NCBI RefSeq assembly: GCF_009711205.1
Contig: NZ_WMIG01000010.1
Location: 1-64,000, forward strand
Reading direction: 5' to 3'
DNA: 64,000 nucleotides
DNA from: Paracoccus litorisediminis
GTDB taxonomy: Bacteria; Pseudomonadota; Alphaproteobacteria; Rhodobacterales; Rhodobacteraceae
The notes under the pieces were generated by a model. It was not told the origin of the DNA and did no database searches. It saw nothing but the letters and a program-made list of their open reading frames with translations. Within the stretch, counting starts at the first letter, position 1. Each line of letters begins with the position of its first letter. Made by a program: the position numbers and the translations under genes. Of this stretch, positions 1,277-19,157 are shown one piece after another.

Positions 1277-3058
1277 TTAGTGGTTGTGCCGCGGCGGGGT
1301 CGACGAGATGCGCTGGAAATCCTCGGCGCCGCGAATGGTCGCGCCGTCCTGCAACTGCGTCACCGTCTCGCGATAGATGCGCTGCCATGGCGTGCGCGAG
1401 GGCGGGACAGCAGGGATGCCATCGGCCTTGCGGCGGGTGATCTCGGCATCGTCCACCAGCATGTCGCAGGTGCCCGTATTCAGGTCCAGACGGATGATAT
1501 CGCCCGTCCGAATCCACGCCAGACCACCACCCGCAGCGCTTTCGGGCGAGGCGTTCAGGATCGACGGGCTGTCCGCAGTTCCCGATTGCCGCCCGTCGCC
1601 CAGCGTCGGCAGGCTGGTGATGCCGCGCTTGATCAGGTGATCCGGCGGCTGCATGTTCACCACCTCGGCCGAGCCCGGCCAGCCCAGCGGACCCGCGCCC
1701 CGGATGACCAGAATCGAACGCTCATCGATGTCCAGCGCCGGATCGTTGATGCGGGCGTGGTAATCCTCGGAGCCGTCAAAGACGAAGGCCTTGCCCTCAA
1801 AGATGCCCTCGCGGCCCGGTTCCGACAGGTAGCGGGCACGGAAATCGGCGGAAATCACCGAGGTCTTCATGATCGCGAAGTCGAACAGGTTGCCCTTGAG
1901 GACGAAGAAGCCTGCGCGCTCCATCATCGGATCGGCATAGGGCTTGATGACCTCGCGGTCGGTCGACTCGCGGCCTTCGAGGTTTTCGGCCATGGTTTGG
2001 CCGCTGACCGTCGGGCAAGTGCCGTTCAGCTTGCCGGCTTGCAACAGTTCCCACATGATCGCCGGGACGCCGCCCGCGCGGTGGAAACGCTCGCCCAGAT
2101 AAGCCCCGGCGGGCTGGACGTTCGCCAGCAGCGGAATGTCATAGCCATGGGCCTGCCAATCCTCGGGACGCAGATCGACGCCAGCATGTTTCGCCATCGC
2201 CATGATATGCGGCTGGGCATTGGTCGAGCCGCCAATGGCCGAGTTCACCCGGATCGCGTTCAGGAAAGCCTCGCGCGTCAGGATGTCCGAGGGGCGGATG
2301 TCTTCCAGCACCAGTTCCACGGCGCGGCGGCCGGTGCGATAGGACATCTGGCCGCGCGAACGATAGGCGGCGGGGATCGCCGCGCAGCCGGTCAGCGACA
2401 TGCCAAGCGCCTCGGCAATGGCGTTCATCGTGCTGGCCGTGCCCATGGTGTTGCAATGGCCGACCGAGGGGGCCGAATCCAGCGCCGCGTCAAGGAATTC
2501 CTCGCGGGTGATTTCGCCAGCCGCATATTTCCGACGCGAGCGCCAGATCACCGTGCCGGAACCCACCAGCTCGCCATCGTGCCAGCCATCCAGCATCGGC
2601 CCGCCGGACAGAACGATCGCCGGAATATCCACCGTCGCCGCCGCCATCAGCGCCGAAGGCGTGGTCTTGTCGCAGCCGGTGGTCAGCACGACCCCGTCAA
2701 AGGGATAGCCGTAAAGCAGCTCGACCAGACCCATATAGGCCAGGTTGCGGTCCAGCGCAGCGGTCGGGCGCTTGCAGTTTTCGAACAGCGGATGCGAGGG
2801 GAATTCGATCGGAATCCCGCCCGCATCGCGGATGCCGTCGCGCACGCGCTTGGCCAGATCCAGATGGTGGCGGTTGCAGGGGTTCAGATCGCTGCCCGAT
2901 TGCGCAATGCCGATGATCGGCTTGCCCGAGCGCAGTTCCTCGGGCGTGGTGCCGTAGTTCATGAAGCGCTCAAGATAAAGCGCCGTCATGTCGGCATGAT
3001 CGGGGTTGTCGAACCAGTCCTGCGAGCGCAGGCGGCGTGGCGATTGGTCCGAGGTCAT
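1277..3058 (-). CDS. IlvD/Edd family sugar-acid dehydratase
   Basis: A 593-residue cytoplasmic Fe-S dehydratase. It should convert an aldonate (such as xylonate, arabinonate or a related sugar acid) to the 2-keto-3-deoxy acid. The three cluster-ligand cysteines of the family are visible: C61 in SDLNPCNRHH, C129 in TTGCDKTTP and C202 in VGHCNTMGTAST. Length matches the aldonate branch of the family. The start ATG overlaps the stop of the preceding dehydrogenase gene (ATGA), so translation is coupled. It is the last gene of a three-gene minus-strand operon. The exact sugar acid cannot be read from sequence; the FAH-fold dehydratase at 7407 suggests a Weimberg-like route. Dihydroxyacid dehydratase (IlvD itself) is less likely given this context. 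Confidence 0.88.
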   Translation of the reverse strand: MTSDQSPRRLRSQDWFDNPDHADMTALYLERFMNYGTTPEELRSGKPIIGIAQSGSDLNPCNRHHLDLAKRVRDGIRDAGGIPIEFPSHPLFENCKRPTAALDRNLAYMGLVELLYGYPFDGVVLTTGCDKTTPSALMAAATVDIPAIVLSGGPMLDGWHDGELVGSGTVIWRSRRKYAAGEITREEFLDAALDSAPSVGHCNTMGTASTMNAIAEALGMSLTGCAAIPAAYRSRGQMSYRTGRRAVELVLEDIRPSDILTREAFLNAIRVNSAIGGSTNAQPHIMAMAKHAGVDLRPEDWQAHGYDIPLLANVQPAGAYLGERFHRAGGVPAIMWELLQAGKLNGTCPTVSGQTMAENLEGRESTDREVIKPYADPMMERAGFFVLKGNLFDFAIMKTSVISADFRARYLSEPGREGIFEGKAFVFDGSEDYHARINDPALDIDERSILVIRGAGPLGWPGSAEVVNMQPPDHLIKRGITSLPTLGDGRQSGTADSPSILNASPESAAGGGLAWIRTGDIIRLDLNTGTCDMLVDDAEITRRKADGIPAVPPSRTPWQRIYRETVTQLQDGATIRGAEDFQRISSTPPRHNH

Positions 3059-3951
3059 TTGCTCTCCTCCGCAGGGATGGCTGCGTTCAGTCTTTCCAGA
3101 TGCAGCAGTAGCCCGCTGTGATCGGTATCGCCATGGCCTGATGCCACAAAATCGGTGAAGGCGCTGCGGACAACCTCGGTCAGGGGCAGCGTCAGGTCGG
3201 TGGCCGCTGCCAGATCGGCCACCGCGTTCAGATCCTTCAGTTGCAGCCGCGAAGGGCCACCGGGGGCAAAGTTCCGTTCGACCATACGCGCGCCGTGCAA
3301 TTCGAGGATGCGGCTTTCGGCGAAACCGCCCCGGATCGCATCGCGGAACTTGGCGCGATCCGCGCCGCCGGCCTGCACCAGCATCATCGCCTCGGCCACC
3401 GCACCGATGGTGACGGCGACAATCTGCTGGTTCGCCAGTTTGCAGACCTGCCCCGCACCGGACGGACCGACATGGGTCAGGCGCCCCAGCGGCGCGAACA
3501 CATCGGCCAGACCCGCGATCACATCCGCGTCGCCCCCGGCCATCAGGGCCAAGGTGCCAGCCTGTGCGCCGACAACGCCACCGGAAACCGGGCTGTCGAC
3601 ATGGGCAATGCCCAGTTCCGCCAGCCTTGCGGCATGATCGCGCGCCATTGCCGGGGCAATGGACGAGGCGTCGATGACGACGGCGCCGGATGCCAGCGCG
3701 CCCGCCACTCCCTGTTCAAACAGCACATTAGCGACGGCGTGCCCGTCCGATAGCATGGTAAAGACCACATCCGCCCCGATCACGGCCTGCACCGGGTCCG
3801 TTGCGACAACCGCGCCGTCGGCGGCCAAGGCCTGCGCCTTTTCCGGGGCGCGGTTCCAGACCGTCACCGGGAACCCGGCCCCGAGCAGGCGGCGCACCAT
3901 CGGTGCGCCCATCAACCCCGTCCCCAGAAAGACGATCTTCACCCCGCTCAC
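3055..3951 (-). CDS. 3-hydroxyisobutyrate dehydrogenase-family NAD(P)-dependent oxidoreductase
   Basis: A 298-residue beta-hydroxyacid dehydrogenase. The N-terminal Rossmann motif is FLGTGLMGAPM (residues 8-18). The substrate-binding signature DSPVSGGVVGAQAGTL lies at about 119-134. The catalytic lysine is K171 in GQVCKLANQ. Relatives act on 3-hydroxyisobutyrate, tartronate semialdehyde, L-threonate or 4-hydroxybutyrate; beside a DenD-like enzyme a C4 sugar acid or tartronate-type substrate is plausible. Translation starts at a GTG overlapping the upstream stop (GTGA), and its own stop overlaps the next start, so all three genes of this operon are coupled. The substrate is unresolved. Confidence 0.85.
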   Translation of the reverse strand: MSGVKIVFLGTGLMGAPMVRRLLGAGFPVTVWNRAPEKAQALAADGAVVATDPVQAVIGADVVFTMLSDGHAVANVLFEQGVAGALASGAVVIDASSIAPAMARDHAARLAELGIAHVDSPVSGGVVGAQAGTLALMAGGDADVIAGLADVFAPLGRLTHVGPSGAGQVCKLANQQIVAVTIGAVAEAMMLVQAGGADRAKFRDAIRGGFAESRILELHGARMVERNFAPGGPSRLQLKDLNAVADLAAATDLTLPLTEVVRSAFTDFVASGHGDTDHSGLLLHLERLNAAIPAEESK

Positions 3952-4931
3952 AACTGGCCGCCCAGCTCGTCCTCGACATGGACGCGGATGATCTCGTCAA
4001 AGCTCGACTCGGCGGTGAAGCCCAGTTCGCGGGCGCGGGTGGCCTCAAAGCCGGGGGCCCAGCCTTCGCACATGCGGATGATCATCGGATCAGGCTCGCG
4101 GCGGATCAGGTTCACGGCCTTGTCGCCGGCGATGCGCCGCAGAGCCTCGATCTGTTCGCCAACCGTGGCGCTGAGGCCCGGCATCGACAGGTTGCGGCGC
4201 GGGCCGACCAGATCCACGTCGATGGTCGCGGCATGCAGCATGAAGCCCACCGCCGAACGCGGCGAGGCATGCCAGTGGCGGATGCTTTCGGGAACCGGCA
4301 GCACCGCTTCCTGACCGATCAGCGGCTCGCGCAGGATGTTCGAGAAGAAGCCCGAAGCCGCCTTGTTTGGCTTGCCGGGGCGGATGCAGACCGTGGGCAG
4401 ACGGATGCCGATACCGTCAAAGAAGCCGCGGCGCGAATAGTCGGCCAACAGCAGCTCGCTCATCGCCTTTTGCGTGCCATAGCTGGTCAGGGGCGTGGTG
4501 TGGAAATCGTCCGGGATCGGGAAAGGCAGCGGTGCGCCGACCACGGCGATGGAGGACGCAAAGACCACGCGCGGACGGTAGCCATCCACCGCCTGCGCCA
4601 GCCGGATCGCCTCGAACAGCGCGCGCGTGCCGTCGAGGTTGATGCGGTAACCCTTTTCAAAATCAAGCTCCGCCTCGCCCGAGACGATGGCGGCAAGGTG
4701 ATAGATCACGTCAGGCCGCGTCGCGATCAGTTTTTCAGCGGTGCCCGCATCGGACAGGTCGGCGGTCAGACGCGTCACCTTGCCGGTAAAGCCCGCGGGG
4801 GCATCGGGCTCGACAACATCAACAAGGGTCAGCGCGTCGATGGCGCGTTCGGCCAGACCGCCCTCGGCGACCAGTTTTTGCGTCAGCTTGCGACCCACCA
4901 TGCCGGCCGCGCCAATGATCAGAATATGCAT
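3948..4931 (-). CDS. denD: DenD-like NAD-dependent epimerase/dehydrogenase (D-erythronate dehydrogenase family)
   Basis: A 327-residue extended short-chain dehydrogenase. The Rossmann motif GAAGMVG is at residues 7-13 and the catalytic pair Y151/K155 is in SYGTQKAMSELL. The overall pattern (IYHLAAIVSGEAE, VFASSIAVVG, the IRLPTVCIRPGKPN segment) resembles D-erythronate dehydrogenase DenD, which oxidises D-erythronate to the 2-keto acid. A uronate or other sugar-acid dehydrogenase is the alternative. It is the first gene of the minus-strand operon, with GAGGAGGAG just before the ATG. A candidate GntR operator lies 59 bases upstream at 4990-5004. Confidence 0.75.
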   Translation of the reverse strand: MHILIIGAAGMVGRKLTQKLVAEGGLAERAIDALTLVDVVEPDAPAGFTGKVTRLTADLSDAGTAEKLIATRPDVIYHLAAIVSGEAELDFEKGYRINLDGTRALFEAIRLAQAVDGYRPRVVFASSIAVVGAPLPFPIPDDFHTTPLTSYGTQKAMSELLLADYSRRGFFDGIGIRLPTVCIRPGKPNKAASGFFSNILREPLIGQEAVLPVPESIRHWHASPRSAVGFMLHAATIDVDLVGPRRNLSMPGLSATVGEQIEALRRIAGDKAVNLIRREPDPMIIRMCEGWAPGFEATRARELGFTAESSFDEIIRVHVEDELGGQL

Positions 4932-4989
4932 CTGGTCTCCTCCTCGAAACCTCGCCGCTCCGGCACCGCGCCGCCGAGCGGATTTATAT

Positions 4990-5004
4990 GGTTGTCTGAT
5001 AACC
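4990..5004. promoter_or_regulatory. Candidate FadR/GntR operator in the divergent denD/oxidase promoter
   Basis: GGTTGTCTGATAACC is a near-perfect palindrome (GGTTGTC, T, GATAACC) followed by CCTGAT. Nearly the same string, GTTGTCTGACACCTGAT, precedes the FAH-family gene at 7366-7382. A FadR-type regulator gene lies between the two sites, so it is the natural candidate to bind both and control both directions. Confidence 0.55.
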
Positions 5005-5065
5005 TGATCTTTGTATGATGCAAGGTGTTTTCACGCCGAAGCGCGACCAGGGAGGGTCTGGCGAC

Positions 5066-6523
5066 ATGGATCGACATATTCAGGAGGCGGGCCGCGCGGC
5101 CCTTGCCGCCGACAGCGACGCATTGGCCGCACGTCTGCGCGACAGCCTTGGCACGGATGTGGTCCTGACCGGACCCGAGACGGCGCGTTATTGCAGCGAC
5201 TGGCATGGCGATGTGCATAGCGGCGCGGTCGCGGTGCTGCGTCCGCGCGACACAGCCGAGGTCGCGGCCTGCATGCGCGCCGCCGTGGCGCTGGGGTTGG
5301 ATGTCGTACCGCAGGGTGGCAATACCGGGCTGGTGCTGGGCGCGACGCCCGACGCGCCCGCCGCGCAGGTGGTCATCAGCCTTGAGCGGATGACCCGCAT
5401 CCGCCGCATCGACGCCGATGATTTCTCGGCAGTGGTCGAGGCAGGCGCTGTTCTTGAAAGCTTCAAGGATCAGGTGGCGCAGGCCGGGCTGTTTTTTCCA
5501 CTCGCGCTTGGTGCGCAGGGTAGCTGCCAGATCGGCGGCAATGTCTCGACCAATGCCGGGGGCGTCAATGTCCTGCGCTACGGGATGACGCGCGATCTGG
5601 TGCTGGGACTGGAAGTGGTGCTGCCCGATGGAACGGTCTTTGATGGGCTGTCGACGCTGCGCAAGGACAATCGCGGGCTGGACCTGAAGCAGCTGTTCAT
5701 CGGGGCCGAAGGCACGCTGGGCATCATCACCGCCGTTTCGGTCAAGCTGCTGCCCCGGCCCGAACATGTCGCGACCGCCCTGCTGGCGCTGGACAGCCTG
5801 CCCGACGCGATCGAGCTTTACCGCCGCGCCCGTCGCCAATGCTGCGACCTGATGTCGGCATTCGAATTCATGCCACCCTTGGCCCTGACATTGGCACAAG
5901 AGGCAATCCCGGACCTGCAGATCCCGATTCAGGCTGACCATCCGGCCTATGTGCTGATGGAAATCTCGGGCTCGGGTCTGGTCGATATCGACGACCTGAT
6001 GGCGCGCTTCCTTGAACTCGCGATGGAGGAAGGGCTGGTCGTCGATGGCGTCGTCGCCCAATCCCATGCGCAGGCCCAGAACCTGTGGCTGATCCGCGAG
6101 GGCATGAACGAAGGTCAGGCCAAGCGCGGCAAGCATCTGCGCACCGATGTCTCGGTCCCGCTGTCCAAACTGGCCGATTTCGTGGCCGAGGCCGAGGCCG
6201 CCATCGCGCAGGACATGCCCGCCGCGGTTTGTGTGTCCTATGGACATGTCGGCGACGGCAATGTGCATCTGAACGTGCTGCCGGATTTTGCCCAAGGCCC
6301 GGACAGTCTTGATGCGCAAATCCTGAAATCGAAAAAGATCGTGAACGCCGTGCTGGACCGCTTCCAGGGCTCGATCAGCGCCGAACATGGAATTGGCCGG
6401 CTGAAGAAGCCCGATTTCACCGCCCGCCTACCGGAAACCCGCCGCCGCCTGCTGCTGGCCATCAAGGCCGCCATTGACCCCGAAGGGGTGATGAATCCGG
6501 GCTGTCAGATCGACCGGACCTGA
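5066..6523 (+). CDS. FAD-binding oxidase of the GlcD/D-2-hydroxyglutarate dehydrogenase family
   Basis: A 485-residue flavoprotein. The FAD-binding type 4 domain shows QGGNTGLVLGA, then CQIGGNVSTNAGGVNVLRYG, then GAEGTLGIITAVSVKLLP. The C-terminal substrate domain carries YGHVGDGNVHLN and SAEHGIGRLK, the metal/substrate motifs of D-2-hydroxyglutarate, D-lactate and glycolate dehydrogenases. It probably oxidises a D-2-hydroxy acid to the 2-keto acid and passes electrons to a quinone or electron-transfer flavoprotein. The start at 5066 is chosen for the GGAGGG at 5051-5056; an in-frame ATG at 5015 lacks such a site and lies too close to the operator. It heads the plus-strand half of the locus. 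Confidence 0.85.
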   Translation: MDRHIQEAGRAALAADSDALAARLRDSLGTDVVLTGPETARYCSDWHGDVHSGAVAVLRPRDTAEVAACMRAAVALGLDVVPQGGNTGLVLGATPDAPAAQVVISLERMTRIRRIDADDFSAVVEAGAVLESFKDQVAQAGLFFPLALGAQGSCQIGGNVSTNAGGVNVLRYGMTRDLVLGLEVVLPDGTVFDGLSTLRKDNRGLDLKQLFIGAEGTLGIITAVSVKLLPRPEHVATALLALDSLPDAIELYRRARRQCCDLMSAFEFMPPLALTLAQEAIPDLQIPIQADHPAYVLMEISGSGLVDIDDLMARFLELAMEEGLVVDGVVAQSHAQAQNLWLIREGMNEGQAKRGKHLRTDVSVPLSKLADFVAEAEAAIAQDMPAAVCVSYGHVGDGNVHLNVLPDFAQGPDSLDAQILKSKKIVNAVLDRFQGSISAEHGIGRLKKPDFTARLPETRRRLLLAIKAAIDPEGVMNPGCQIDRT

Positions 6524-6564
6524 TAAGAGATGGATCAGGAACGAAAAAAAAGGCTCGATCAGAG

Positions 6565-7281
6565 ATGACACAGGGATTTGGGCAGATATCGCGTAACGAA
6601 CATCTGCCGGCGCGGATCGCGTCGCAATTCGCGGAACGCATCCACAGGGGCGACATCAAGCCCGGCGACAAGCTGCCGACCGAACATGCGATGGCGCAGA
6701 CCTTCGGCGTCAGCCGCACCGTGATTCGCGAGGCCATCGCGCAGCTGCGCAATGAAGGGCTGGTCGAGACCCGGCAGGGCGTCGGCGCCTTCGTGGTCGA
6801 ACGGCAGGCTCGCCACATTCGGCTTGGCGATGGCGAGCAGATGAACAAGCACGACTTCACCGACCTCTTTCAGCTGCGCGTGCCGCTGGAAATCGAGGCG
6901 GCGGGGCTGGCTGCGGTCAACCACACGCCGCCGCAGCTGGAATTGCTGGACGCGGCCCTTGCCCGGATGTCGCAATCGCAGGACTGGAACACCGAAGGCG
7001 TCGCCGCCGATCTGGAGTTTCACCGCATCATCGCGCTGGCAACCGGGAATGCATATTTCGACCAGTTCATCAGCGCCATCGCCGACCGGGTCGGCCATGT
7101 CATCATGGCCGCACGCGAGCAGATTTTGTTCGATGAAATCATGGCCATCACCATCGATGAGCATATGGCCATCCGCGACGCCATCCGTGCCCGCGATCCG
7201 TTGGCCGCACGGCGCGCCATGCGCCAGCACCTGACCGGGTCGGCCAGCCGGGTCGGCATGGAGCTGGAATTTTTCAACTGA
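6565..7281 (+). CDS. FadR/GntR-family transcriptional regulator (FCD domain)
   Basis: A 238-residue regulator. The N-terminal winged helix (residues 12-78) has the GntR pattern IKPGDKLPTEHAMAQTFGVS, then RTVIREAIAQLRNEGLVE. The all-helical FCD domain follows, with metal-ligand-like histidines in EFHRIIALATGN, IDEHMAIRDAI and AMRQHL. It follows the FAD oxidase by 41 bases and precedes the FAH-family gene. It probably senses a sugar acid or keto acid and represses both arms of the locus through the sites at 4990-5004 and 7365-7379. The ribosome binding site is weak. A 12-codon frame starting at 6530 ends in an ATGA overlap with this start, which may aid reinitiation. Confidence 0.9.
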   Translation: MTQGFGQISRNEHLPARIASQFAERIHRGDIKPGDKLPTEHAMAQTFGVSRTVIREAIAQLRNEGLVETRQGVGAFVVERQARHIRLGDGEQMNKHDFTDLFQLRVPLEIEAAGLAAVNHTPPQLELLDAALARMSQSQDWNTEGVAADLEFHRIIALATGNAYFDQFISAIADRVGHVIMAAREQILFDEIMAITIDEHMAIRDAIRARDPLAARRAMRQHLTGSASRVGMELEFFN

Positions 7282-7352
7282 AACAATCCTCTGATCCAAA
7301 GTTTGGCAACAAGACGATTGGCGGTGGACAGAATCTTACCGCAGCGTTAAGG

Positions 7353-7382
7353 ATCAGGTCATAATGTTGTCTGACACCTGAT
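7353..7382. promoter_or_regulatory. Candidate GntR operator upstream of the FAH-TRAP genes
   Basis: The core TGTTGTCTGACACCT (7365-7379) closely matches the site at 4990-5004. It is also embedded in a larger inverted repeat with arms ATCAGGT (7353-7359) and ACCTGAT (7376-7382). The site lies 25-50 bases before the FAH-family start codon, where a repressor would block transcription. Confidence 0.55.
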
Positions 7383-7406
7383 GTCAGCACGGCGCGTGGA
7401 GGCGCC

Positions 7407-8594
7407 GTGAAAAAACGGGAGGTTGCATTGGTTTCAACTCATGCGTTGAAAGCGGTCGGGATTTTGCCCGATGACGCGGATCGCGCCATCCTTGTCGGCC
7501 GTGTCTGGTCCAATGACGCAGGCGGCCCCTGCCCCGTCACGCTGCGCAATGGCCGCGTGCTTGATCTCAGCGGGATTGCCGCGACGGTCTCGGGTCTTCT
7601 GGAACTTGACGATGTGGCCCAGCGTCTGGGCACCGCCGATCTGCCCGATCTCGGCCATCTGGACGAATATCTGGACGGAAGCCGTGGCCGGCTGCTGGCC
7701 CCGATCGACCTGCAGGCGGTCAAGGCCGCTGGCGTGACCTTCGCCGACAGCATGCTGGAACGCGTGATCGAGGAACAGGCGCGTGGCGATAGCGGCCGGG
7801 CGCAGGAAATCCGCGCACGTCTGGCCCCGGTGATCGGGGAAAACCTGCGCGGCGTGCAGGCCGGTTCGGAAAAATCTCGTCAAGTCAAAGCCTTGCTGCA
7901 GGAAATGAACCTGTGGTCGCAATATCTTGAGGTCGGCATCGGTCCCGACGCCGAGATCTTCACCAAGGCCCAGCCGATGTCTTCGGTCGGCTGCGGCGAC
8001 AAGGTCGGGCTGCACCCGATTTCCGAATGGAACAACCCCGAGCCGGAAGTGGTCATGGTCACCCGCGCCGACGGGACCATCATCGGCGCGACCTTGGGCA
8101 ATGACGTGAACCTGCGCGATGTCGAGGGCCGCTCGGCCCTGCTGCTTGGCAAGGCCAAGGACAACAACGCGTCGTGCTCGATCGGGCCGTTCATCCGGCT
8201 GTTCGATGGCGAGTTCACGCTGGAAGTGGTCGAACAGGTCGTCGTCTCGCTGCTGGTTCAGGGCGAGGACGGGTTCGAGATGACGGGCGAAAGCCCGCTG
8301 GCAGCCATCAGCCGCAAGCCCGCCGATCTGGTCGGGCAGATGCGCAACCGTTCGCACCAATACCCGGATGGCGCGGTGCTGTTCCTTGGCACCATGTTCG
8401 CCCCGGTCAAGGACCGCCGCGGCAAGGGTCAGGGCTTTACCCATGAAATGGGCGACCGGGTCGAGATCTCGACCCCGCGTCTGGGCCGTCTGGTGAACTG
8501 GGTCGACCGCTCGGACGCCTGCCCGGAATGGGGTTTCGGCACGCGCGAGCTGATGCGCAATCTGGTGAAACGCGGATTGGGGGAAAGGATTTGA
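7407..8594 (+). CDS. FAH-family 2-keto-3-deoxy-sugar-acid dehydratase (XylX-like)
   Basis: A 395-residue protein of the fumarylacetoacetate hydrolase fold. It keeps the acidic metal-binding set: the glutamates in NPEPEVVMV and the aspartate in TLGNDVNLRD. Length and the GRVW near the N-terminus followed by PVTLRNGRVLDLSG fit the XylX/KdxD group, which removes water from 2-keto-3-deoxy-xylonate or -arabinonate to give alpha-ketoglutarate semialdehyde. This follows naturally from the IlvD/Edd dehydratase at 1277, giving a Weimberg-type route; the semialdehyde dehydrogenase is not in the window. The GTG at 7407 has GGAGG four bases upstream; a TTG at 7428 has an equally good GGAGG, so the start is uncertain by seven codons. 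Confidence 0.82.
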   Translation: MKKREVALVSTHALKAVGILPDDADRAILVGRVWSNDAGGPCPVTLRNGRVLDLSGIAATVSGLLELDDVAQRLGTADLPDLGHLDEYLDGSRGRLLAPIDLQAVKAAGVTFADSMLERVIEEQARGDSGRAQEIRARLAPVIGENLRGVQAGSEKSRQVKALLQEMNLWSQYLEVGIGPDAEIFTKAQPMSSVGCGDKVGLHPISEWNNPEPEVVMVTRADGTIIGATLGNDVNLRDVEGRSALLLGKAKDNNASCSIGPFIRLFDGEFTLEVVEQVVVSLLVQGEDGFEMTGESPLAAISRKPADLVGQMRNRSHQYPDGAVLFLGTMFAPVKDRRGKGQGFTHEMGDRVEISTPRLGRLVNWVDRSDACPEWGFGTRELMRNLVKRGLGERI

Positions 8595-8595
8595 G

Positions 8596-9135
8596 ATGGT
8601 CAAGACCGTAATCAACCTGTTCTACCGCCTTCTGGACTATGTGCTGATCTTCCTGATCGGCGGCATGGCTCTGATGGTCTTTGTGAACGTCGTCATGCGC
8701 TACACCATGAACTCGGGCATTCCGGTGACCGAGGAACTGTCGCGCTTCTTCTTTGTCTGGCTGACCTTCATCGGCGCGGTCGTGGCGCATCGCCACAACC
8801 TGCATATGGGCATGGAAACCTTTGTCGCGATGATGGGCCGCAAGGGCCGCATGCTGATGATGGGTCTTTCGGACCTGCTGATCATCGGCTGCTCGTTCGT
8901 GTTGTTCTGGGGCAGCTGGAAACAGCTTCCGATCAACATGAGCATGCTGGCCCCTGTGTCCGGCATCCCGATGGGCTGGGTCTATGGAACCGGCCTGTTC
9001 ACCGCGACCTGCATCATCCTGATCACGCTTGAACGTTTCATCCGCCTGCTGACCGGTCGCGTGACCGAAGCCGAGATCGCCGCCTTTGCCGGTGAGTTCC
9101 ACAGCGTCGAAGAATTGGCGGAGCGCGGCCTATGA
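8596..9135 (+). CDS. dctQ: TRAP transporter small permease (DctQ family)
   Basis: A 179-residue membrane protein with four predicted helices: about residues 12-34, 50-67, 90-108 and 130-150. The family motif is the ELSRFFFVWLTFIGAVVAHR stretch. It pairs with the large permease to make the membrane part of a sodium- or proton-driven TRAP carrier. It starts one base after the FAH-family stop codon and overlaps the next gene by four bases, so FAH, DctQ, DctM and DctP genes are one operon. The link to sugar-acid enzymes points to a sugar-acid substrate rather than a C4 dicarboxylate. Confidence 0.92.
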   Translation: MVKTVINLFYRLLDYVLIFLIGGMALMVFVNVVMRYTMNSGIPVTEELSRFFFVWLTFIGAVVAHRHNLHMGMETFVAMMGRKGRMLMMGLSDLLIIGCSFVLFWGSWKQLPINMSMLAPVSGIPMGWVYGTGLFTATCIILITLERFIRLLTGRVTEAEIAAFAGEFHSVEELAERGL

Positions 9136-10409
9136 CCCTAATCGTCTTTATCGTTTCCCTGATCGGGGCCATGGCCATTGGCGCGCCCGTCGCCTTTGCC
9201 CTGATCTTCTGCGGCGTCATGCTCATGACCTATATGGGCATGTTCAACACCCAGATCATCGCCCAGAACATGATGATCGGCGCCGATACCTTCACGCTGC
9301 TGGCCATTCCCTTCTTCGTCCTTGCGGGCGAGCTGATGAACGCTGGCGGTCTGTCCAAGCGGATCATCGACTTCTCGATCGCCTGTGTCGGCCATATCCG
9401 GGGCGGTCTGGGCATCGTGGCCATCGTCGCCGCGATCATCATGGCCTCGATCTCGGGCTCGGCTGCGGCGGATACCGCGGCGCTGGCCGCGATCCTGATC
9501 CCGATGATGGCCAAGGCCGGTTATAACGTGCCGCGCTCGGCCGGTCTGATTGCAGCGGGCGGCGTCATCGCGCCGGTCATCCCGCCGTCGATGGCCTTCA
9601 TCGTCTTCGGCGTCTCGGCCAACGTCTCGATCTCGAAACTGTTCATGGCCGGGATCGTGCCGGGCGTGCTGATGGGCGTGTCGCTGCTGATCACCTGGCT
9701 GATCGTGGTCCGCAAGGACAAGATCGAAAGCCTGCCGCGCGCCAGCTGGCCTGATCGCGGCCGCTCTGCCGCGCGTGCGGCCTGGGCACTTGGCATGCCG
9801 GTCATCATTCTGGGCGGCATCAAGATGGGCGTCGTCACGCCTACCGAAGCTGCCGTTGTCGCCGCCTTCTATGCACTGTTCGTCGGCATGTTCGTCTATC
9901 GCGAACTGAAGCCCGCCGATCTGCCCAAGGTGCTGCTGTCCGCAGCCAAGACCACCGCCGCGATCATGTTCCTTGTCTGCGCCGCTCTGGTTTCGGCCTG
10001 GCTGATCACCGCCGCCAACATACCGAATGAGATCACGGGCTACATCGAGCCGCTGATCGACAACCCGAAACTGCTGATGTTCGCCATCATGGTGCTGATC
10101 CTGATCGTGGGCACGGCACTGGACCTGACGCCGACCATCCTGATCCTGACGCCCGTGCTGCTGCCGATCGTCGTCAAGGCCGGGATCGACCCGATCTACT
10201 TTGGCGTCATGTTCATCATGAACTGCTGCATCGGCCTGCTGACCCCGCCGGTGGGCGTCGTGCTGAACGTCGTCAGCGGCGTCGGCAAGATCCCTCTGGG
10301 CAAGGTCATCACCGGTGTCTGGCCCTTCCTGATCGCCGAAACCATCGTCCTGTTCCTGTTGGTCCTGTTCCCGCAGATCGTGACGGTCCCGGCGAACTGG
10401 TTCTACTGA
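9132..10409 (+). CDS. dctM: TRAP transporter large permease (DctM family)
   Basis: A 425-residue polytopic inner-membrane protein of usual DctM length, hydrophobic nearly throughout. Characteristic stretches are IPFFVLAGELMNAGGLSKRI, ASISGSAAADTAALAAI, IPPSMAFIVFGV and the C-terminal GLLTPPVGVVLNVVSG. It is the ion-coupled translocation subunit. The ATG overlaps the end of dctQ (ATGA). The binding-protein gene follows after 40 bases with its own strong ribosome binding site, which allows more binding protein to be made than permease. Confidence 0.95.
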   Translation: MTLIVFIVSLIGAMAIGAPVAFALIFCGVMLMTYMGMFNTQIIAQNMMIGADTFTLLAIPFFVLAGELMNAGGLSKRIIDFSIACVGHIRGGLGIVAIVAAIIMASISGSAAADTAALAAILIPMMAKAGYNVPRSAGLIAAGGVIAPVIPPSMAFIVFGVSANVSISKLFMAGIVPGVLMGVSLLITWLIVVRKDKIESLPRASWPDRGRSAARAAWALGMPVIILGGIKMGVVTPTEAAVVAAFYALFVGMFVYRELKPADLPKVLLSAAKTTAAIMFLVCAALVSAWLITAANIPNEITGYIEPLIDNPKLLMFAIMVLILIVGTALDLTPTILILTPVLLPIVVKAGIDPIYFGVMFIMNCCIGLLTPPVGVVLNVVSGVGKIPLGKVITGVWPFLIAETIVLFLLVLFPQIVTVPANWFY

Positions 10410-10449
10410 TCAAACTTCAACCGTTTTCTGAATTCCTGGGAGGAACCAC

Positions 10450-11460
10450 ATGAAAAACCACGCAATCAAGGCCGCGCTGCTTGTCTCGACCCTGCTGGGT
10501 GCCGCAACGCCCGCCCTTGCCGATTTCCAGGCGCGCAACTTCCGCGTCTCGAACGGGATCAACGAGGATCACCCGGTCAACAACGGCATGAAGGCCATGC
10601 AGGTCTGCCTGGATGAGAAGACCGGCGGCCAGATGAAGATGACCGGTTTCTGGGGCGGCGCGCTTGGCGGCGACCTTCAGGCGACGCAGGCGCTGCGCTC
10701 GGGCGTGCAGGAAGCGGTTGTCACCTCGTCCTCGCCGCTGGTCGGCATCGTCCCGGCGCTTGGCGTCTTTGACCTGCCCTTCCTGTTCCGCAGCAACGAA
10801 GAAGCCTATGCCGTCATGGATGGCGAGTTCGGCGACTTCCTGAACCAGAAGCTGGACGAGGCCGGGCTGGTCAACCTTGCCTATTGGGAAAACGGCTTCC
10901 GCAACGTGTCGAACTCGAAGCTGCCGATCACCAAATGGGAAGACTTCGAGGGTCTGAAGCTGCGCGTGATGCAGAACAACATCTTCCTCGACAGCTTCGC
11001 CAACTTCGGTGCCAACGCCACGCCGATGGCCTTTGGCGAGGTATTCTCGGCGCTGGAAACCAAGGCGATCGACGCGCAGGAAAACCCCTATGTCACGCTG
11101 GACACCTCGAAATTCTACGAGGTGCAAAGCTATGTCAGCGAGACCAAGCACGCCTACACCCCGTTCCTGTTCCTGTTCTCGAAGGCGATCTTCAACACCT
11201 ATTCGCCCGAGGAACAGCAGGCCCTGCGTGACTGCGCCGCCGTTGGCCGCGATGAAGAACGCAAGGTCATCCAAGAGCTGAACAAGGCCTCGCTGGCCAA
11301 GGTCGAAGCTGCCGGGCTGAAGTTCAACACCATCACCCCGGAAGAACAGGCCCGCATGCTTGAGAAGTCGCAAGTGGTCTACGAAAAGCACAAGGCCGAT
11401 ATCGGCGAAGACGTCGTCGACCGCGTGCAGAAAGAACTGGCCGCGATCCGCGGCAACTAA
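10450..11460 (+). CDS. dctP: TRAP transporter solute-binding protein (DctP family)
   Basis: A 336-residue periplasmic protein with a Sec signal (residues 1-25) cleaved near PALA/DF. The conserved ligand-binding region has the arginine in LRVMQN that usually pairs with a substrate carboxylate, then ANATPMAFGEVFSALETKAI and AQENPYVT. It delivers the substrate, probably a sugar acid in view of its neighbours, to the DctQM permease. GGGAGGA sits six bases before the ATG. It ends the operon and a strong terminator follows. Confidence 0.95.
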   Translation: MKNHAIKAALLVSTLLGAATPALADFQARNFRVSNGINEDHPVNNGMKAMQVCLDEKTGGQMKMTGFWGGALGGDLQATQALRSGVQEAVVTSSSPLVGIVPALGVFDLPFLFRSNEEAYAVMDGEFGDFLNQKLDEAGLVNLAYWENGFRNVSNSKLPITKWEDFEGLKLRVMQNNIFLDSFANFGANATPMAFGEVFSALETKAIDAQENPYVTLDTSKFYEVQSYVSETKHAYTPFLFLFSKAIFNTYSPEEQQALRDCAAVGRDEERKVIQELNKASLAKVEAAGLKFNTITPEEQARMLEKSQVVYEKHKADIGEDVVDRVQKELAAIRGN

Positions 11461-11507
11461 GCCACAAGGTCGCGCCGTCGTCCCCCCGGGCGGCGCGGCC
11501 GAAACTG

Positions 11508-11536
11508 CGGCGCCGCCATCGCGGCGCCGGTTTTTT
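11508..11536 (+). terminator. Intrinsic terminator after dctP
   Basis: An 8-bp GC stem (CGGCGCCG with CGGCGCCG, read as arms 11508-11515 and 11522-11529) has a six-base loop and runs straight into TTTTTT at 11531-11536. This is a textbook rho-independent terminator 48 bases after the dctP stop. Confidence 0.8.
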
Positions 11537-11677
11537 CAGCGAGAGGCCATGGTGAAGATCACGCCTATTCGTGACCACCACGACATTCGCGCCATTGCTG
11601 CGATGACTTAGAACGCCCGCCTCCAAGCCTCGATCTGCCCATCAACCGGGCTCGTCGGAAAGCCATTTTGGCGCGTG

Positions 11678-12367
11678 TCAGTCCTTTTTCTTTCTGAAAA
11701 CCAGATCGAGATAGCTGTCGCCCGCACGCAGGACGTGAGCCTTCATCGCGACTTCGGCGGCATCGGGGTCGCCAGCAATGACCGCGCGGCCGATCTGCCG
11801 ATGCTCGGTCAGGGCCTGCTGGCGTTCCGCCGGATCGGAATGGATCACCCGCCTTGCGCCGCTGTCATAGACATCCTGCCGATCGTTCAACAGCCGCAGG
11901 TAATTCGCCCGCGCGACCGAGCGGATATGGCCGTGAAAGACCTCATTCAGCTGCACCAGTTCCTCGGCGCTGCTTTCGGCAGTGGCGCGCTGCATGTCGT
12001 CAAGGATGGCCTGTAGTACCGGCTTGTCTGGCGCGGTGATGCGCTGCGCGGCCAGCCGGGCGATGGTCGATTCGATGGCGGCGCGGGCGAGGATCATTTC
12101 CTCGGCCCAGGCGAAATCGAAATTCACGATCACCCCGCTGCGGGGCTTGGTGCGGACCAGACCGTCGGCTTCCAGCAGGCGCAGGGCCTCTTTCACCGGG
12201 GTGGTGCTGACGCCCAGTTGCTCTGCGATGGCGCGTTCGTTCAGCCGCGCGCCCGGCTCGAATCCGCCCTGCAGGATCACCTGCCGCAACGCGCGGTGCA
12301 CATGCTCGCGCAGCCCGACAAGGGCATGAGGGTCCAGCGGCGCAAGGGCTGCTACGGGCAGAGGCAT
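11678..12367 (-). CDS. GntR-family transcriptional regulator (FCD domain)
   Basis: A 229-residue regulator. The winged-helix domain spans about residues 18-85 with LNERAIAEQLGVSTTPVKEA and LRLLEADGLVRTKPRSGV. A C-terminal FCD ligand-binding bundle has histidines in VFHGHIRSVAR and AMKAHVLR. It lies 48 bases downstream of the SorC-type regulator in the same direction, so the two may be cotranscribed. It is convergent with the TRAP operon. It could control either neighbouring catabolic cluster; the sequence does not decide which. Confidence 0.9.
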   Translation of the reverse strand: MPLPVAALAPLDPHALVGLREHVHRALRQVILQGGFEPGARLNERAIAEQLGVSTTPVKEALRLLEADGLVRTKPRSGVIVNFDFAWAEEMILARAAIESTIARLAAQRITAPDKPVLQAILDDMQRATAESSAEELVQLNEVFHGHIRSVARANYLRLLNDRQDVYDSGARRVIHSDPAERQQALTEHRQIGRAVIAGDPDAAEVAMKAHVLRAGDSYLDLVFRKKKD

Positions 12368-12415: not shown

Positions 12416-13381
12416 TCAAACCCGCGCGTCGTGTTCCAACACCATACGCGCGGTCAGATCGTCGGTGATCAGAATATTGGCCAATCCCGCCCGAAGGGCC
12501 GCGCGAATGATCGCGACCTTATGCGGACCGGCTGCGGCCAGCACACGTTCAGGCGTCTGGCGCAAGGTTTCCAGATCAATGCCGATGGTGCAGTCGTCCA
12601 ATGCCGTCCTGACCTGCTGGCCCTGCCCGTCCAGAAACCGACAGACCACATCCCCGATCGCGCCCGCATCGGTCAGGTCGCGCATGCCAACCTCGGACGG
12701 CAGGCCGGTGCGGATCAGATAGCTGCGTTCGGAAATGTCGCTGGCCGTCAGGATCGCCACGTCCAGCGCCGTCAGCTTGTGGAAATGCTCGGTGAAGATC
12801 TCTTGCGCCAGAAAGGCGGCACGGTCGATCTGCGGCGCAAGAAAGATCGGCGCGGCCAGCAGCGAATAGCGCGCCCCAAGCCGCCCCGCCAAACCCGAGG
12901 CGATACCGAAGGCATTGAGCGAATCCCCCCGGCTGGTCCCCCCGATCATCGAGATCACCTCAAGCTCGGGCAGGCTTTGCTGCATCATCCGGTTGATCGC
13001 GCTTTGCAGCGTCATCCCCCATGACACGCCGATGCGCCGCCATTCGCCTGCCTGCAGCCGCTCCGCCATATAGGCCGCCAGCGCCGCGCCGCAGGCATTG
13101 TGATAATCGTAATGTTCGGGATTGGCCGGGGCCACCAACGCACGCGCCAGCCCGAAGCGTTCCTGCAACTGGTCCTGCAGATCAAAGCGCGGCAGGAAGG
13201 GCGAATCGATCTCGACCTTGACCAACCCCAGGGCGCGGGCGCGCTGGATGGCCTGATTCACCCGCAACCGGGTCACGCCCATCGCCTTGGCGATCTGGGC
13301 CTGGGTCAATTCATTCACGAAATAATGCCAGCAGACTTCGACGGTGAAGGCATCGGCCTGCGGAAAATCCTTGTTCAACAT
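12416..13381 (-). CDS. SorC/DeoR-type sugar-binding transcriptional regulator
   Basis: A 321-residue regulator with an N-terminal helix-turn-helix (LTQAQIAKAMGVTRLRVNQA, about residues 25-44). A C-terminal sugar-phosphate-binding domain of the SorC/CggR type follows, visible as WGMTLQSAI, VISMIGGTSRG and the late AAGPHKVAII. It is divergent from the polyol ABC operon, like the regulator of the smo operon in Rhodobacter. It probably binds the inverted repeat at 13444-13461 and responds to a polyol or sugar phosphate. Confidence 0.9.
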   Translation of the reverse strand: MLNKDFPQADAFTVEVCWHYFVNELTQAQIAKAMGVTRLRVNQAIQRARALGLVKVEIDSPFLPRFDLQDQLQERFGLARALVAPANPEHYDYHNACGAALAAYMAERLQAGEWRRIGVSWGMTLQSAINRMMQQSLPELEVISMIGGTSRGDSLNAFGIASGLAGRLGARYSLLAAPIFLAPQIDRAAFLAQEIFTEHFHKLTALDVAILTASDISERSYLIRTGLPSEVGMRDLTDAGAIGDVVCRFLDGQGQQVRTALDDCTIGIDLETLRQTPERVLAAAGPHKVAIIRAALRAGLANILITDDLTARMVLEHDARV

Positions 13382-13443
13382 GGGCGCATCTCATCGGGCG
13401 GGAGGCGCTTGTCAAGCATCGGAAATCCCGCCCCGTTTACAAC

Positions 13444-13461
13444 TGTATTTTTAGAAATACA
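13444..13461. promoter_or_regulatory. Candidate SorC operator
   Basis: TGTATTTTTAGAAATACA is a perfect inverted repeat with 7-bp arms and a 4-bp centre, AT-rich in an otherwise GC-rich region. It lies between the divergent sorC-type gene (start 13381) and the binding-protein gene (start 13580), so one site could serve both promoters. Confidence 0.65.
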
Positions 13462-13579
13462 TTTGCAAGTTTTTCTTGCGCGAAGCTTGGCGGATTTGCC
13501 AAGATGCCCATGGGACGAGGAAGGCCGGAGCGGCAACGACAGTTTCCCGCCGCACCTCGCCGATCAGGGAGGATGGTTG

Positions 13580-15016
<1,437 letters not shown>

Positions 15017-15032
15017 GCGTTCCTCCCCCGGT

Positions 15033-15056
15033 CGCCGCGGGAGCAATCCCGCGGCG
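15033..15056 (+). other. Intercistronic hairpin with GNRA loop
   Basis: Perfect 10-bp arms CGCCGCGGGA and TCCCGCGGCG close on a GCAA loop, a stable GNRA tetraloop. No U-run follows. It sits 16 bases after the binding-protein stop. Such stems usually protect the upstream binding-protein message from 3' decay or partly terminate, giving more binding protein than permease. Confidence 0.7.
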
Positions 15057-15100
15057 ATTGGCAAGCCGCGCGCATCTCCGCGCATTGGACGGGAAAAGCC

Positions 15101-15979
15101 ATGCAATCCAAGTTTCTGGGCTGGGCCTTGCTGGCCCCCACGCTGCTGATCCTGGCGCTGTTCGGGGTCGTGCCCTTCATCTATGTGCTGTTCGTGTCCT
15201 TCCACCAATGGAACCCGTTCGGGGCCAATCCCGACATGGTGTTCAACTGGGCCGACAATTACCGCAAGCTGGTCTTTGACGCGCAGTTCCTGGCCTCGCT
15301 GGGGGTGACGGCGGCCTTCGTCTTCTTCGCCGTCCTGTCCGAGCTGATCCTTGGCTATTTTCTGGCGCAGGCCCTGATGCGGGATTTTCCCGGCAAGACG
15401 TTCTTTCGCACCATCCACACCCTGCCCTTGATCATGGCTCCGATCATCGTCGGCTCGGTCTGGAAGTTGATGACGACGCCGTCCATCGGGATCATCCCGA
15501 ACCTGCTGTCGAACTGGTTGGGCTATGACCTGAATATCGGCCAAAGCGCGTGGCAGGCCTTTGCCACCACCGTGGTCATGGACATCTGGCACTGGACGCC
15601 GCTGGTCACGCTGACCCTGATCGCGGCGCTGGTGTCCCTGCCCGCCGATCCGTTCGAGCAGGCGCAGATCGACGGCGCGAACCGGCGGCAGATCTTCTGG
15701 CACATCACGCTGCCGATGATCCGTCCGGCGATCCTTGCCACCGTCTTCATCCGCATGATGGACGCGATGCGGACCGTCGATGAGGTATTGATGCTGACCG
15801 GCGGCGGCCCCGGCTCGGCCACGCGCTATGTCGGCGTGCATATCTTCAAGGAAGTCTTTCCAAGGACGAATTACGGCTACGGATCGGCCGTGTCGGTGAT
15901 CGTCCTGTACCTGACCATCGTCACCTGCTGGCTGATGTATGTCGGCCTGATCGCACCCCGCAACAAGGGAAAGGGCTGA
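15101..15979 (+). CDS. Polyol ABC transporter permease (first subunit)
   Basis: A 292-residue inner-membrane protein with six predicted helices, beginning with WALLAPTLLILALFGVVPFI. The EAA loop that docks the ATPase is seen as EQAQIDGANRRQIFWHITLP at about residues 186-205. It belongs to the MalF/SmoF-type permease group and forms a heterodimer with the next gene product. It is separated from the second permease by three bases. Confidence 0.92.
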   Translation: MQSKFLGWALLAPTLLILALFGVVPFIYVLFVSFHQWNPFGANPDMVFNWADNYRKLVFDAQFLASLGVTAAFVFFAVLSELILGYFLAQALMRDFPGKTFFRTIHTLPLIMAPIIVGSVWKLMTTPSIGIIPNLLSNWLGYDLNIGQSAWQAFATTVVMDIWHWTPLVTLTLIAALVSLPADPFEQAQIDGANRRQIFWHITLPMIRPAILATVFIRMMDAMRTVDEVLMLTGGGPGSATRYVGVHIFKEVFPRTNYGYGSAVSVIVLYLTIVTCWLMYVGLIAPRNKGKG

Positions 15980-15982
15980 TCC

Positions 15983-16822: not shown

Positions 16823-16825
16823 ACC

Positions 16826-17014: not shown

Positions 17015-17017
17015 GTC

Positions 17018-18070: not shown

Positions 18071-18081
18071 GGGGGACGGGC

Positions 18082-19143: not shown

Positions 19144-19157
19144 ATCAAGGGAACCGC

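Follow-up and report, generated by a model that had tools for sequence, protein, structure and literature searches.

A conserved two-transcript locus combining a predicted Weimberg dehydratase pair, DenD-like and other redox enzymes and a TRAP carrier, with a probable role in aldonate breakdown

Described systems and the layout of the locus

Among the described systems, the Weimberg pathway of Caulobacter, the genes of which we take to be xylXABCD, comes close to the locus examined here, having in common with it an IlvD/Edd D-xylonate dehydratase and a FAH-fold 2-keto-3-deoxypentonate (KDP) dehydratase, both predicted in our case. In contrast to the Caulobacter system, no aldose dehydrogenase, lactonase or alpha-ketoglutaric semialdehyde (KGSA) dehydrogenase was found among the ten ORFs scanned (1277-12367), and the locus would take up the acid itself through a TRAP carrier and carries three extra redox enzymes. 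Cluster 1 of Herbaspirillum huttiense is described as encoding a D-arabinonate dehydratase, the D-KDP dehydratase C785_RS13680 and a D-KDP 4-dehydrogenase (PMC6336799). Its FAH protein is related to ours: GarD-like dehydratases lie near FAH homologs in seven loci, in an arrangement resembling that D-arabinonate cluster, and the FAH protein is at least 66% identical to that of the window in five of the seven and 56% identical in another, locus L154 of Herbaspirillum autotrophicum. Our locus differs in having an IlvD/Edd protein as its acid-sugar dehydratase, no COG1028 KDP 4-dehydrogenase, and a TRAP carrier. With the tetronate (DenD/Otn) system it shares the DenD family and an adjoining NAD_binding_2/11 dehydrogenase, but it lacks OtnK, OtnI and OtnC, its beta-hydroxyacid dehydrogenase does not reach the LtnD cut-off, and an FCD-type GntR regulator and a TRAP carrier take the place of DeoR and MFS. 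Finally, the CxaP/DctPAm binding protein of Advenella mimigardefordensis (7bbr, 7bco), which is reported to bind D-xylonate, D-fuconate, D-galactonate and D-gluconate (PMC12076931), is among the two nearest solved relatives of our DctP in both sequence and fold.

The window, that is, the whole stretch of 64,000 nucleotides that was analyzed (bases 1-64000 of contig C2), holds the locus close to a contig end, which lies 1276 bases past the IlvD gene. The ORF and domain/profile scan placed every gene named in the sequence-only reading where that reading had put it, and the span 1277-11460 is exact (Table 1). The GntR/FCD regulator gene is also part of the locus, although the title of that reading did not mention it. 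The three minus-strand genes overlap their neighbors by 4 bases, and an 83-base gap parts them from the divergent plus-strand genes, which start with the FAD-linked oxidase.

Table 1. Features of the locus, with functions as predicted from profile and structure matches
Feature	Position	Strand	Remarks
IlvD/Edd sugar-acid dehydratase	1277..3058	-	593 aa; PRK13017, 5oyn match
GarR/HIBADH-family NAD(P) beta-hydroxyacid dehydrogenase	3055..3951	-	298 aa; PF03446 + PF14833
DenD-like NAD-dependent dehydrogenase	3948..4931	-	327 aa; NF043036, 2hrz match
Operator-like palindrome TTGTCTGATAA	4992..5002	.	in divergent DenD/FAD-oxidase promoter gap
FAD-linked D-2-hydroxyacid dehydrogenase	5015..6523	+	502 aa as called, start uncertain; PF01565 + PF02913
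GntR-family FCD regulator	6565..7281	+	PF00392 + PF07729
Operator-like palindrome TTGTCTGACAC	7367..7377	.	upstream of FAH-TRAP operon
FAH-fold 2-keto-3-deoxypentonate dehydratase, XylX type	7407..8594	+	395 aa; 9kkt, 9kkv matches
DctQ, TRAP small permease	8596..9135	+	PF04290 103 bits
DctM, TRAP large permease	9132..10409	+	TIGR00786 457 > 268
DctP, TRAP solute-binding protein	10450..11460	+	TIGR00787 233 > 175

This gene mix is far above what chance would yield, since 47 of the 67 loci with a close FAH homolog (out of 83 loci examined) have both DenD and DctP in the flanking sequence that was fetched. The 47 loci come from Paracoccaceae, Rhizobiaceae, Brucellaceae and Bordetella, and a GntR/FCD regulator was found in all of them; an IlvD match was missing from nine by the search rule used, one of which is cut by a contig end. 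The gene set is thus a conserved unit in many soil and water bacteria. Overall, we consider it likely that this two-transcript, probably co-regulated locus serves aldonate uptake and non-phosphorylative breakdown, of pentonates above all, and its core would be the Weimberg (Route II) pair of IlvD/Edd and FAH-fold dehydratases. Counting against this explanation is a relative (L190) in which the cluster is present without FAH, and against its emphasis on pentonates two Bordetella loci (L124, L143), which encode three further proteins, partly identified by eye: an SDR, a sugar kinase and a KDPG-aldolase-like protein.

The predicted dehydratase pair and the last step

In the profile search the IlvD/Edd protein scored 1044 bits with PRK13017 (cut-off 684), and it is identical at 440 of 591 positions (74%) to 5oyn, presumably the Caulobacter D-xylonate dehydratase CcXylD. 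Its C-terminus reads RHNH, the final His being typical of sugar-acid dehydratases; to our knowledge, IlvD/Edd enzymes of this kind are reported to take (2R,3S) aldonates only. The C-terminal His is described for the IlvD/Edd sugar-acid dehydratase group in PMC9314677, where CcXylD is reported to be active on both D-xylonate and D-gluconate. By sequence, the protein is an IlvD/Edd dehydratase of the D-xylonate type, and its identity to a characterized enzyme suggests that it would convert a (2R,3S) aldonate such as D-xylonate into KDP.

The FAH-fold protein matched 9kkt with 391 bits in the sequence search of solved structures, and its predicted model (pLDDT 84.7) aligns end to end with 9kkv, a 2-keto-3-deoxy-D-xylonate dehydratase (VIA Z 49.4, rmsd 2.3, 368 residues, 54% identity), as opposed to a Z of 24.0 with 8gst, an L-2,4-diketo-3-deoxyrhamnonate hydrolase. 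Characterized D-KDP dehydratases are described as members of the FAH family (PMC7374468). Both sequence and fold place our protein with the 2-keto-3-deoxypentonate dehydratases, and structure, residues and gene partners suggest that it would turn KDP into KGSA. Hydrolases of the FAH family carry a His-x-x-Glu pattern, and at the place where it is expected (placement by motif) our protein reads Ser115-Met-Leu-Glu118, so that the candidate of a hydrolase with the catalytic His was rejected. The same hydrolase pattern is given in PMC6336799, which also describes Route III in Herbaspirillum. If the locus followed that route, a dehydrogenase would oxidize KDP at C4, pyruvate and glycolate would result from hydrolysis of the 2,4-dioxo acid by the FAH-fold protein, and oxidation of the glycolate would fall to the GlcD-like enzyme. 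On paper the dehydrogenases, FAH fold, GlcD-like oxidase and GarR-like reductase fit such a scheme, but we regard it as highly improbable, as Glu183 is kept in 99 of 99 FAH sequences and Ser115 in 28 of 28, the fold is closer to the dehydratase than to the hydrolase, DenD is of the NAD-epimerase type (PF01370) and not the COG1028 SDR of Route III, and the FAD-linked enzyme misses the GlcD equivalog cut-off (TIGR00387, 245.4 < 567.9).

The choice between pentonates and hexonates is less sharp. Hexonates may be the real substrates, because CcXylD works faster with D-gluconate than with D-xylonate (47.91 vs 25.65 U/mg for CcXylDHT; PMC9314677), and three of the four acids bound by CxaP are hexonates (PMC12076931); gluconate-5-dehydrogenase-like SDRs, all below cut-off, also occur in 9 of the 83 loci, eight of them with DenD. 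We nevertheless think it unlikely that D-gluconate, D-galactonate and D-fuconate are served at least as much as pentonates, with FAH acting on a C6 2-keto-3-deoxy acid or on a pentonate branch only: the FAH match to a D-KDP dehydratase is end to end, and a KDG kinase-like match lies near only two cluster loci (L124 and L143), with none among the window-cluster ORFs scanned.

A Weimberg-type route to KGSA had been proposed from the sequence alone, and it is supported by the two dehydratase matches and by the proximity of DctP to the sugar-acid binder 7bbr. The same reading considered the last enzyme missing from the window, which is true, but says little because the contig stops 1276 bases after IlvD; the semialdehyde dehydrogenase is probably encoded elsewhere in the genome. 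A candidate at C12:645877-647391 gives 908 bits to 3v4c, which we take to be a KGSA dehydrogenase; for this 3v4c-like protein no NCBIfam match was found at E <= 1e-70. The type is present in 39 of the 47 cluster genomes, and six of the other eight hold a GudD-like ALDH (61-100% identity), named below the curated threshold (558 < 770), so that 45 of the 47 have one candidate or the other, with neither type found in G205, the genome of locus L132. In relatives L127 and L140 the GudD-like ALDH lies inside the cluster itself. As a family control, the 3v4c-like type was found in 73 of 88 FAH-positive vs 58 of 207 FAH-negative genomes. Such a dehydrogenase would convert KGSA to alpha-ketoglutarate.

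Carrier, regulator and operator-like sites

DctP matches two solved binders equally well by sequence (4p47 and 7bbr, 246 bits each), and its model (pLDDT 67.6) gives VIA Z values of 27.8 and 25.7, respectively. While 4p47, from Ochrobactrum anthropi, ranks first, it is ligand-free, and the predicted aldonate class of ligand therefore rests on 7bbr at 33% identity over 283 residues, described with 2-keto-3-deoxy-D-gluconate bound (PMC11668362). C4 acids would be suited as well, because other 4p47-related binders hold erythronate or pantoate, most ligands of the solved TRAP binders in that group having co-purified (PMC11668362). The nearest solved binders suggest that DctPQM would import the acid.

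The palindrome TTGTCTGAYAA occurs in both promoter gaps of the locus. With up to two mismatches to TTGTCTGACAA, it is found in 41 of 42 corresponding DenD/FAD-oxidase gaps vs 3.1% of shuffles of those gaps, and in 47 of 51 gaps upstream of FAH-TRAP (an unshuffled set), counts to be read with the consensus having been derived from the same gaps and with related loci not being independent. It was not found near the KGSA dehydrogenase candidate of this genome. Control of both transcripts probably lies with the GntR/FCD protein, which would act at this site in each promoter. The FAD-linked gene was called from 5015, but this start is in doubt, as the operator-like site (4992-5002) lies a mere 12 bases ahead of it, and an in-frame ATG at 5066 is a possible alternative.

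The redox enzymes and the range of acids

DenD passes the D-erythronate dehydrogenase equivalog NF043036 (362.1 > 325) and is 80% identical to 2hrz. The GarR-like protein falls short of the cut-off in each of the 12 NCBIfam models listed, including tartronate semialdehyde reductase (248 < 341) and L-threonate dehydrogenase LtnD (NF043037, 137.2 < 350), and its nearest solved relative is 4dll (276 bits). For the FAD-linked enzyme the nearest is 3pm9 (349 bits), named merely "putative oxidoreductase", and D-2-hydroxyglutarate dehydrogenase 6lpn gives 305 bits.

The C4 sugar acids suggested from the sequence alone thus find support in DenD, but not in the GarR-like protein or in the rest of the cluster. 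It is conceivable, though doubtful, that two pathways share one carrier, with the Weimberg pair handling C5 acids and DenD, perhaps with the GarR-like enzyme, oxidizing D-erythronate or threonate to a 2-oxo-tetronate for OtnI, OtnK and OtnC encoded elsewhere. Besides the DenD score and the erythronate in some solved binders, the adjoining OtnK (613 > 350) and OtnC (334 > 250) of this genome (C1:509858-511754) speak for such a division. Against it, no Otn gene was found among the ten ORFs scanned, OtnI of this genome is below cut-off (268 < 325), and OtnK is above cut-off in only 22 of the 47 cluster genomes, this one included; it is below cut-off in G135, G150, G205 and G094, all 99-100% complete, and has no match at E <= 0.001 in seven of the 47, a count to be read with the named genomes coming without a completeness value. 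A more distant kinase of the 2-OtnK type could stand in for it (PMC12540250). In a tree of 77 sequences, moreover, the cluster DenDs form one clade of their own, apart from two OtnK-linked DenDs.

Returning to aldonate breakdown through the dehydratase pair, DenD, the GarR-like and the FAD-linked enzymes would add redox steps on hydroxyls of the imported acids, and their conserved linkage and shared operator-like site suggest that they draw on one acid pool. Tentatively, and with more doubt than confidence, they may form a stereochemical redox funnel that inverts hydroxyls and feeds other stereoisomers to the (2R,3S)-only dehydratase. DenD with the FAD-linked enzyme would oxidize the 2-OH, the GarR-like enzyme would provide reduction or 3-OH chemistry, and D-xylonate would arise from D-lyxonate (C2 inverted) or D-ribonate (C3 inverted). 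We did not find a D-ribonate or D-lyxonate pathway of this type described in the open-licence literature searched.

The combined or new pathway envisaged earlier fits in the sense of the gene set, which is conserved as a unit and shares an operator-like site. What looked like an odd gene mix thereby becomes a unit open to gene-by-gene tests in over 40 sequenced genomes. "D-erythronate dehydrogenase" labels in the cluster genomes may mislead, since a single clade of DenD accompanies pentonate-type dehydratases, and no tetronate kinase exceeds the curated cut-off in 25 of the 47 genomes. If the redox enzymes do invert stereocenters, several stereoisomers would be burned via one carrier and one dehydratase pair, a single locus would make several sugar acids available as food, and its genes would serve as ready-made parts for producing alpha-ketoglutarate from sugar-acid mixtures.

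Gene content and the dehydratase pair

The locus occupies window positions 1277-11460. It is made up of nine genes, all of them intact, which form two transcripts running in opposite directions; all the genes named for this divergent arrangement in the sequence-only reading are in place. Neighbouring genes of the minus-strand transcript overlap by 4 bases in each pair. Contig C2 begins with the window, which covers 64 kb of it, in a genome of 5.37 Mb and 72 contigs. The DenD of the window shares 94% identity with its counterpart in Paracoccus aestuariivivens.

Genes of the cluster, with their positions in the window and the databases searched for the assignment
Gene product	Position	Strand	Assignment
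IlvD/Edd dehydratase	1277-3058	minus	NCBIfam + Pfam
GarR/HIBADH-family dehydrogenase	3055-3951	minus	NCBIfam + Pfam
DenD	3948-4931	minus	NCBIfam + Pfam
FAD-linked D-2-hydroxyacid dehydrogenase	5015-6523	plus	NCBIfam + Pfam
GntR/FCD regulator	6565-7281	plus	NCBIfam + Pfam
FAH-fold protein	7407-8594	plus	NCBIfam + Pfam
TRAP DctQ, DctM, DctP	8596-11460	plus	NCBIfam + Pfam

Adjoining the cluster, at 12416-22077, are genes for a SorC-type regulator, a sugar ABC transporter, a Zn-dependent dehydrogenase, a mannitol/D-arabinitol-type dehydrogenase and XylB (score 540, above the cut-off of 380); this is a predicted polyol pathway under its own regulator.

IlvD is identical at 440 of 591 aligned positions to 5oyn, which we take to be the Caulobacter D-xylonate dehydratase, and its C-terminal residue is histidine. 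Such a histidine has been proposed to position sugar acids; the same source reports the Caulobacter enzyme as active on D-xylonate and D-gluconate, this IlvD/Edd enzyme group as accepting only (2R,3S) acids, and D-xylonate as the sole substrate of its test enzyme among the four D-pentonates (PMC9314677). The FAH protein matched no model in the NCBIfam search. Within this fold, a glutamate is described as specific to dehydratases, and a His/Glu pair three residues apart as specific to hydrolases (PMC6336799). All 99 sequences compared have the glutamate corresponding to Glu183 of the FAH protein, and Ser115 stands at the place expected for the histidine in 28 of 28 (placement by motif). Characterised dehydratases of D-2-keto-3-deoxypentonate (D-KDP) belong to the FAH family and those of L-KDP to the DHDPS family (PMC7374468). 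The two residues and this family membership make predicted conversion of KDP to alpha-ketoglutaric semialdehyde (KGSA) the best reading for the FAH protein, and the Weimberg-type route to KGSA proposed earlier would hold for both dehydratases. Route III, leading to pyruvate and glycolate, was attractive at first because it uses every gene without requiring a KGSA dehydrogenase; it was rejected in view of the residues and the structure of the FAH protein. The locus is probably a Route II (Weimberg) aldonate locus with its KGSA dehydrogenase supplied in trans, which is the ordinary part of the finding.

Conservation, possible alternative dehydratases and an operator-like palindrome

We compared 83 loci, namely the best 80 of at least 597 stretches from named genomes plus three (L059-L061) of 20 family neighbourhoods, the other 17 of which (L062-L078, FAH 58-64%) were mapped separately. 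A partner was counted at ≥50% identity and ≥80% query coverage with no stop; a gene that is broken or cut off by the end of a contig is therefore scored as absent, and L144 was excluded from the partner counts because its FAH is broken. Open reading frames on the loci beyond the window come from a simple GC-frame caller, some being spurious, and gene names were assigned partly by eye. FAH at ≥66% identity is present in 67 of the 83 listed loci, together with DenD and DctP in 47 of the 67; these 47 also carry GntR (47), DctM (47), DctQ (46), the FAD enzyme (41), GarR (39) and IlvD (38), and extend over Paracoccus, other Paracoccaceae, Rhizobium, Agrobacterium, Sinorhizobium, Brucella pituitosa, B. 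tritici and Bordetella. Another 19 of the 67 lack DenD by the same rule, with FAH in other settings. A second group, of seven loci in genomes of the same family (FAH 59-62%, DenD-like 41-46%), resembled this module but was left out of the cluster counts because it is a separate, larger region with gluconate- and OtnK-type genes, and its DenD-like proteins form a distant clade. None of the open-licence PMC papers listed in literature searches dealt with this cluster.

The dehydratase accompanying FAH may vary. In 7 of the 83 listed loci FAH has a GarD-like dehydratase in its vicinity, and in five of these seven FAH is at ≥66%. Sixteen of the 83, all from Rhizobiales, encode an enolase-superfamily protein (844 bits to 4dx3; at L085:15090-16292, for example); among the sixteen are L144 and five of the nine IlvD-less cluster loci (L103, L122, L123, L135 and L141). 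L082, which is cut by its contig, L106, L127 and L134 have neither IlvD nor this protein. These occurrences suggest that different acid-sugar dehydratases feed one KDP dehydratase. An enolase-superfamily copy at 90% identity is found in the same genome as the window (C10:56115-57314, L170), beside amidohydrolase-like and peptide-type ABC transporter-like genes named by eye; being sited in another region, it is not evidence for the window.

Both promoter gaps contain a palindrome, TTGTCTGATAA at 4992-5002 between DenD and the FAD enzyme and TTGTCTGACAC at 7367-7377 between GntR and FAH, and the 64-kb window has no other site within one mismatch of TTGTCTGACAA. With up to two mismatches to the consensus TTGTCTGAYAA, the palindrome is found in 41 of 42 DenD/FAD gaps of relatives, as opposed to 3.1% of shuffled ones, and in 47 of the 51 that separate GntR from FAH, only gaps 30-500 bases long being considered, counts which describe conservation rather than an independent test, as the consensus was read from the same gaps. 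It is retained before FAH in several loci without TRAP genes, and a gene for an EamA-family membrane protein beside the cluster is preceded by a perfect copy in L091 (at 15096) and L092 (at 15073); 27 of the 83 listed loci encode proteins of that EamA group. The palindrome was not found in the stretches around the genome's own KGSA dehydrogenase candidate, enolase-family gene or second sugar-acid cluster. Its distribution indicates that both transcripts are probably co-regulated as one regulon. What we take to be the classical FadR-type operator, TNGTNNNACNA, was tried as well; it matches the window five times, close to the 4.05 matches expected, and neither promoter gap contains it.

A candidate KGSA dehydrogenase in trans

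The last enzyme of the route had been called missing, and none of the ten open reading frames scanned at 1277-12367 encodes it; candidates are, however, encoded elsewhere. The genome yields 28 aldehyde dehydrogenase matches, and the candidate at C12:645877-647391 scores 908 bits to 3v4c, presumably an alpha-ketoglutarate semialdehyde dehydrogenase of Sinorhizobium, although annotated simply as an NADP+ aldehyde dehydrogenase; the candidate protein matched no NCBIfam model at E ≤ 1e-70. We searched 47 cluster-carrying genomes, a set different from the 47 partner-count loci: 41 of the 44 named loci (L123, L128 and L133 left out), L144, the genome of the window, G135, G150, G205 and G094. They represent 46 distinct genomes, since G205 (L061) is also the genome of L132, Frigidibacter albus; L122 and L123 come from different strains of a single species. 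The 3v4c-like type is present in 39 of the 47, and six of the remaining eight have a GudD-like dehydrogenase at 61-100% identity, which, in a search covering 11 genomes, was not found in three checked genomes having the 3v4c-like type. The GudD-like gene lies within the cluster in two Agrobacterium relatives (L127 and L140) and follows FAH-IlvD in L146; its product scores 558 with the NCBIfam GucD model for KGSA dehydrogenase, below the cut-off of 770.

As a control, 295 family genomes were examined, which represent 294 genera, so that none is a near copy of another even though they are related. Of the 88 genomes with an FAH homologue, 73 have the 3v4c-like type, versus 58 of the 207 FAH-negative ones (Fisher p ~1e-18). 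This presence list is complete, and adjacency counts are lower bounds: at least 19 genomes have the 3v4c-like gene no further than 6 kb from FAH, and at least 24 of the 88 have FAH and a DenD-like gene, the distant group included, no more than 5 kb apart.

Elsewhere in the genome of the window (L169, G000:C10:17000-36900), two identical 489-residue aldehyde dehydrogenases lie 5.8 kb apart, each preceded by a look-alike dehydrogenase of ~350 residues (likeness judged from the first residues), reflecting either a recent duplication or an assembly effect.

The redox enzymes and the carrier

DenD scores 362 with the D-erythronate dehydrogenase model, above the cut-off of 325, which lends partial support to the C4 sugar acids put forward earlier. 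The genome encodes the tetronate-pathway proteins OtnK and OtnC outside the cluster, and OtnI only below the cut-off. OtnK, however, exceeds its cut-off in just 22 of the 47 genomes searched, which weakens the tetronate reading; seven have no match at all, and G135, G150, G205 and G094, for which completeness is given as 99-100%, have matches below the cut-off. A separate 2-oxo-tetronate kinase route is described (PMC12540250), with which the tetronate reading could still hold. Of 77 DenDs placed in a tree, the 51 that belong to cluster loci, among them that of L111, which lacks TRAP genes, fall on one side of a branch (100/96), and both OtnK-linked DenDs lie outside it. The GarR-like protein is below the cut-off of all NCBIfam models listed, and among relatives of known function D-2-hydroxyglutarate dehydrogenase (305 bits) is nearest to the FAD enzyme.

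The same genome holds another sugar-acid cluster (L187, G000:C12:508000-527900), which contains a DenD at 57% and an IlvD at 64% to those of the window, plus an OtnI-like protein, a DapA-family protein, SDRs and a 280-residue FAH-like protein, the last identified by eye. This second DenD is again in pentonate-type company, and the cluster may be an L-KDP Route II/III locus.

The best solved relatives of DctP are 4p47 and 7bbr, a sugar-acid binding protein, with equal bits; in the fold comparison 4p47 comes first (Z 27.8) and 7bbr second (Z 25.7), for a model with pLDDT of only 67.6, and the likeness to the CxaP/7bbr system lies in this sequence and fold match. Reported ligands of the CxaP system are D-xylonate, D-fuconate, D-galactonate and D-gluconate (PMC12076931), and 7bbr is described with 2-keto-3-deoxy-D-gluconate bound, 4p47 as ligand-free, and other relatives with erythronate or pantoate, mostly co-purified (PMC11668362). 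These ligands would, at best, narrow the class bound by DctP to sugar acids, not to a chain length.

The cluster is a conserved and probably co-regulated unit whose three redox enzymes have no place in any known textbook route, as the remark that the gene mix matches no single textbook pathway had anticipated, and this is its new part. D-lyxonate is the C2 epimer of D-xylonate, and D-ribonate its C3 epimer. It is conceivable, if rather unlikely, that the three enzymes act as a stereochemical funnel: oxidation of 2-OH groups would fall to DenD together with the FAD enzyme, and the GarR-like enzyme, whose family acts on beta-hydroxy acids, would also take part. One locus, L190 (G094:C5:334500-354400), has the cluster without FAH, flanked by a gluconate-5-dehydrogenase-like SDR and by a glycerate kinase, the latter identified by eye. 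It represents a natural knock-out, which could reveal the role of the redox enzymes without KDP dehydration.
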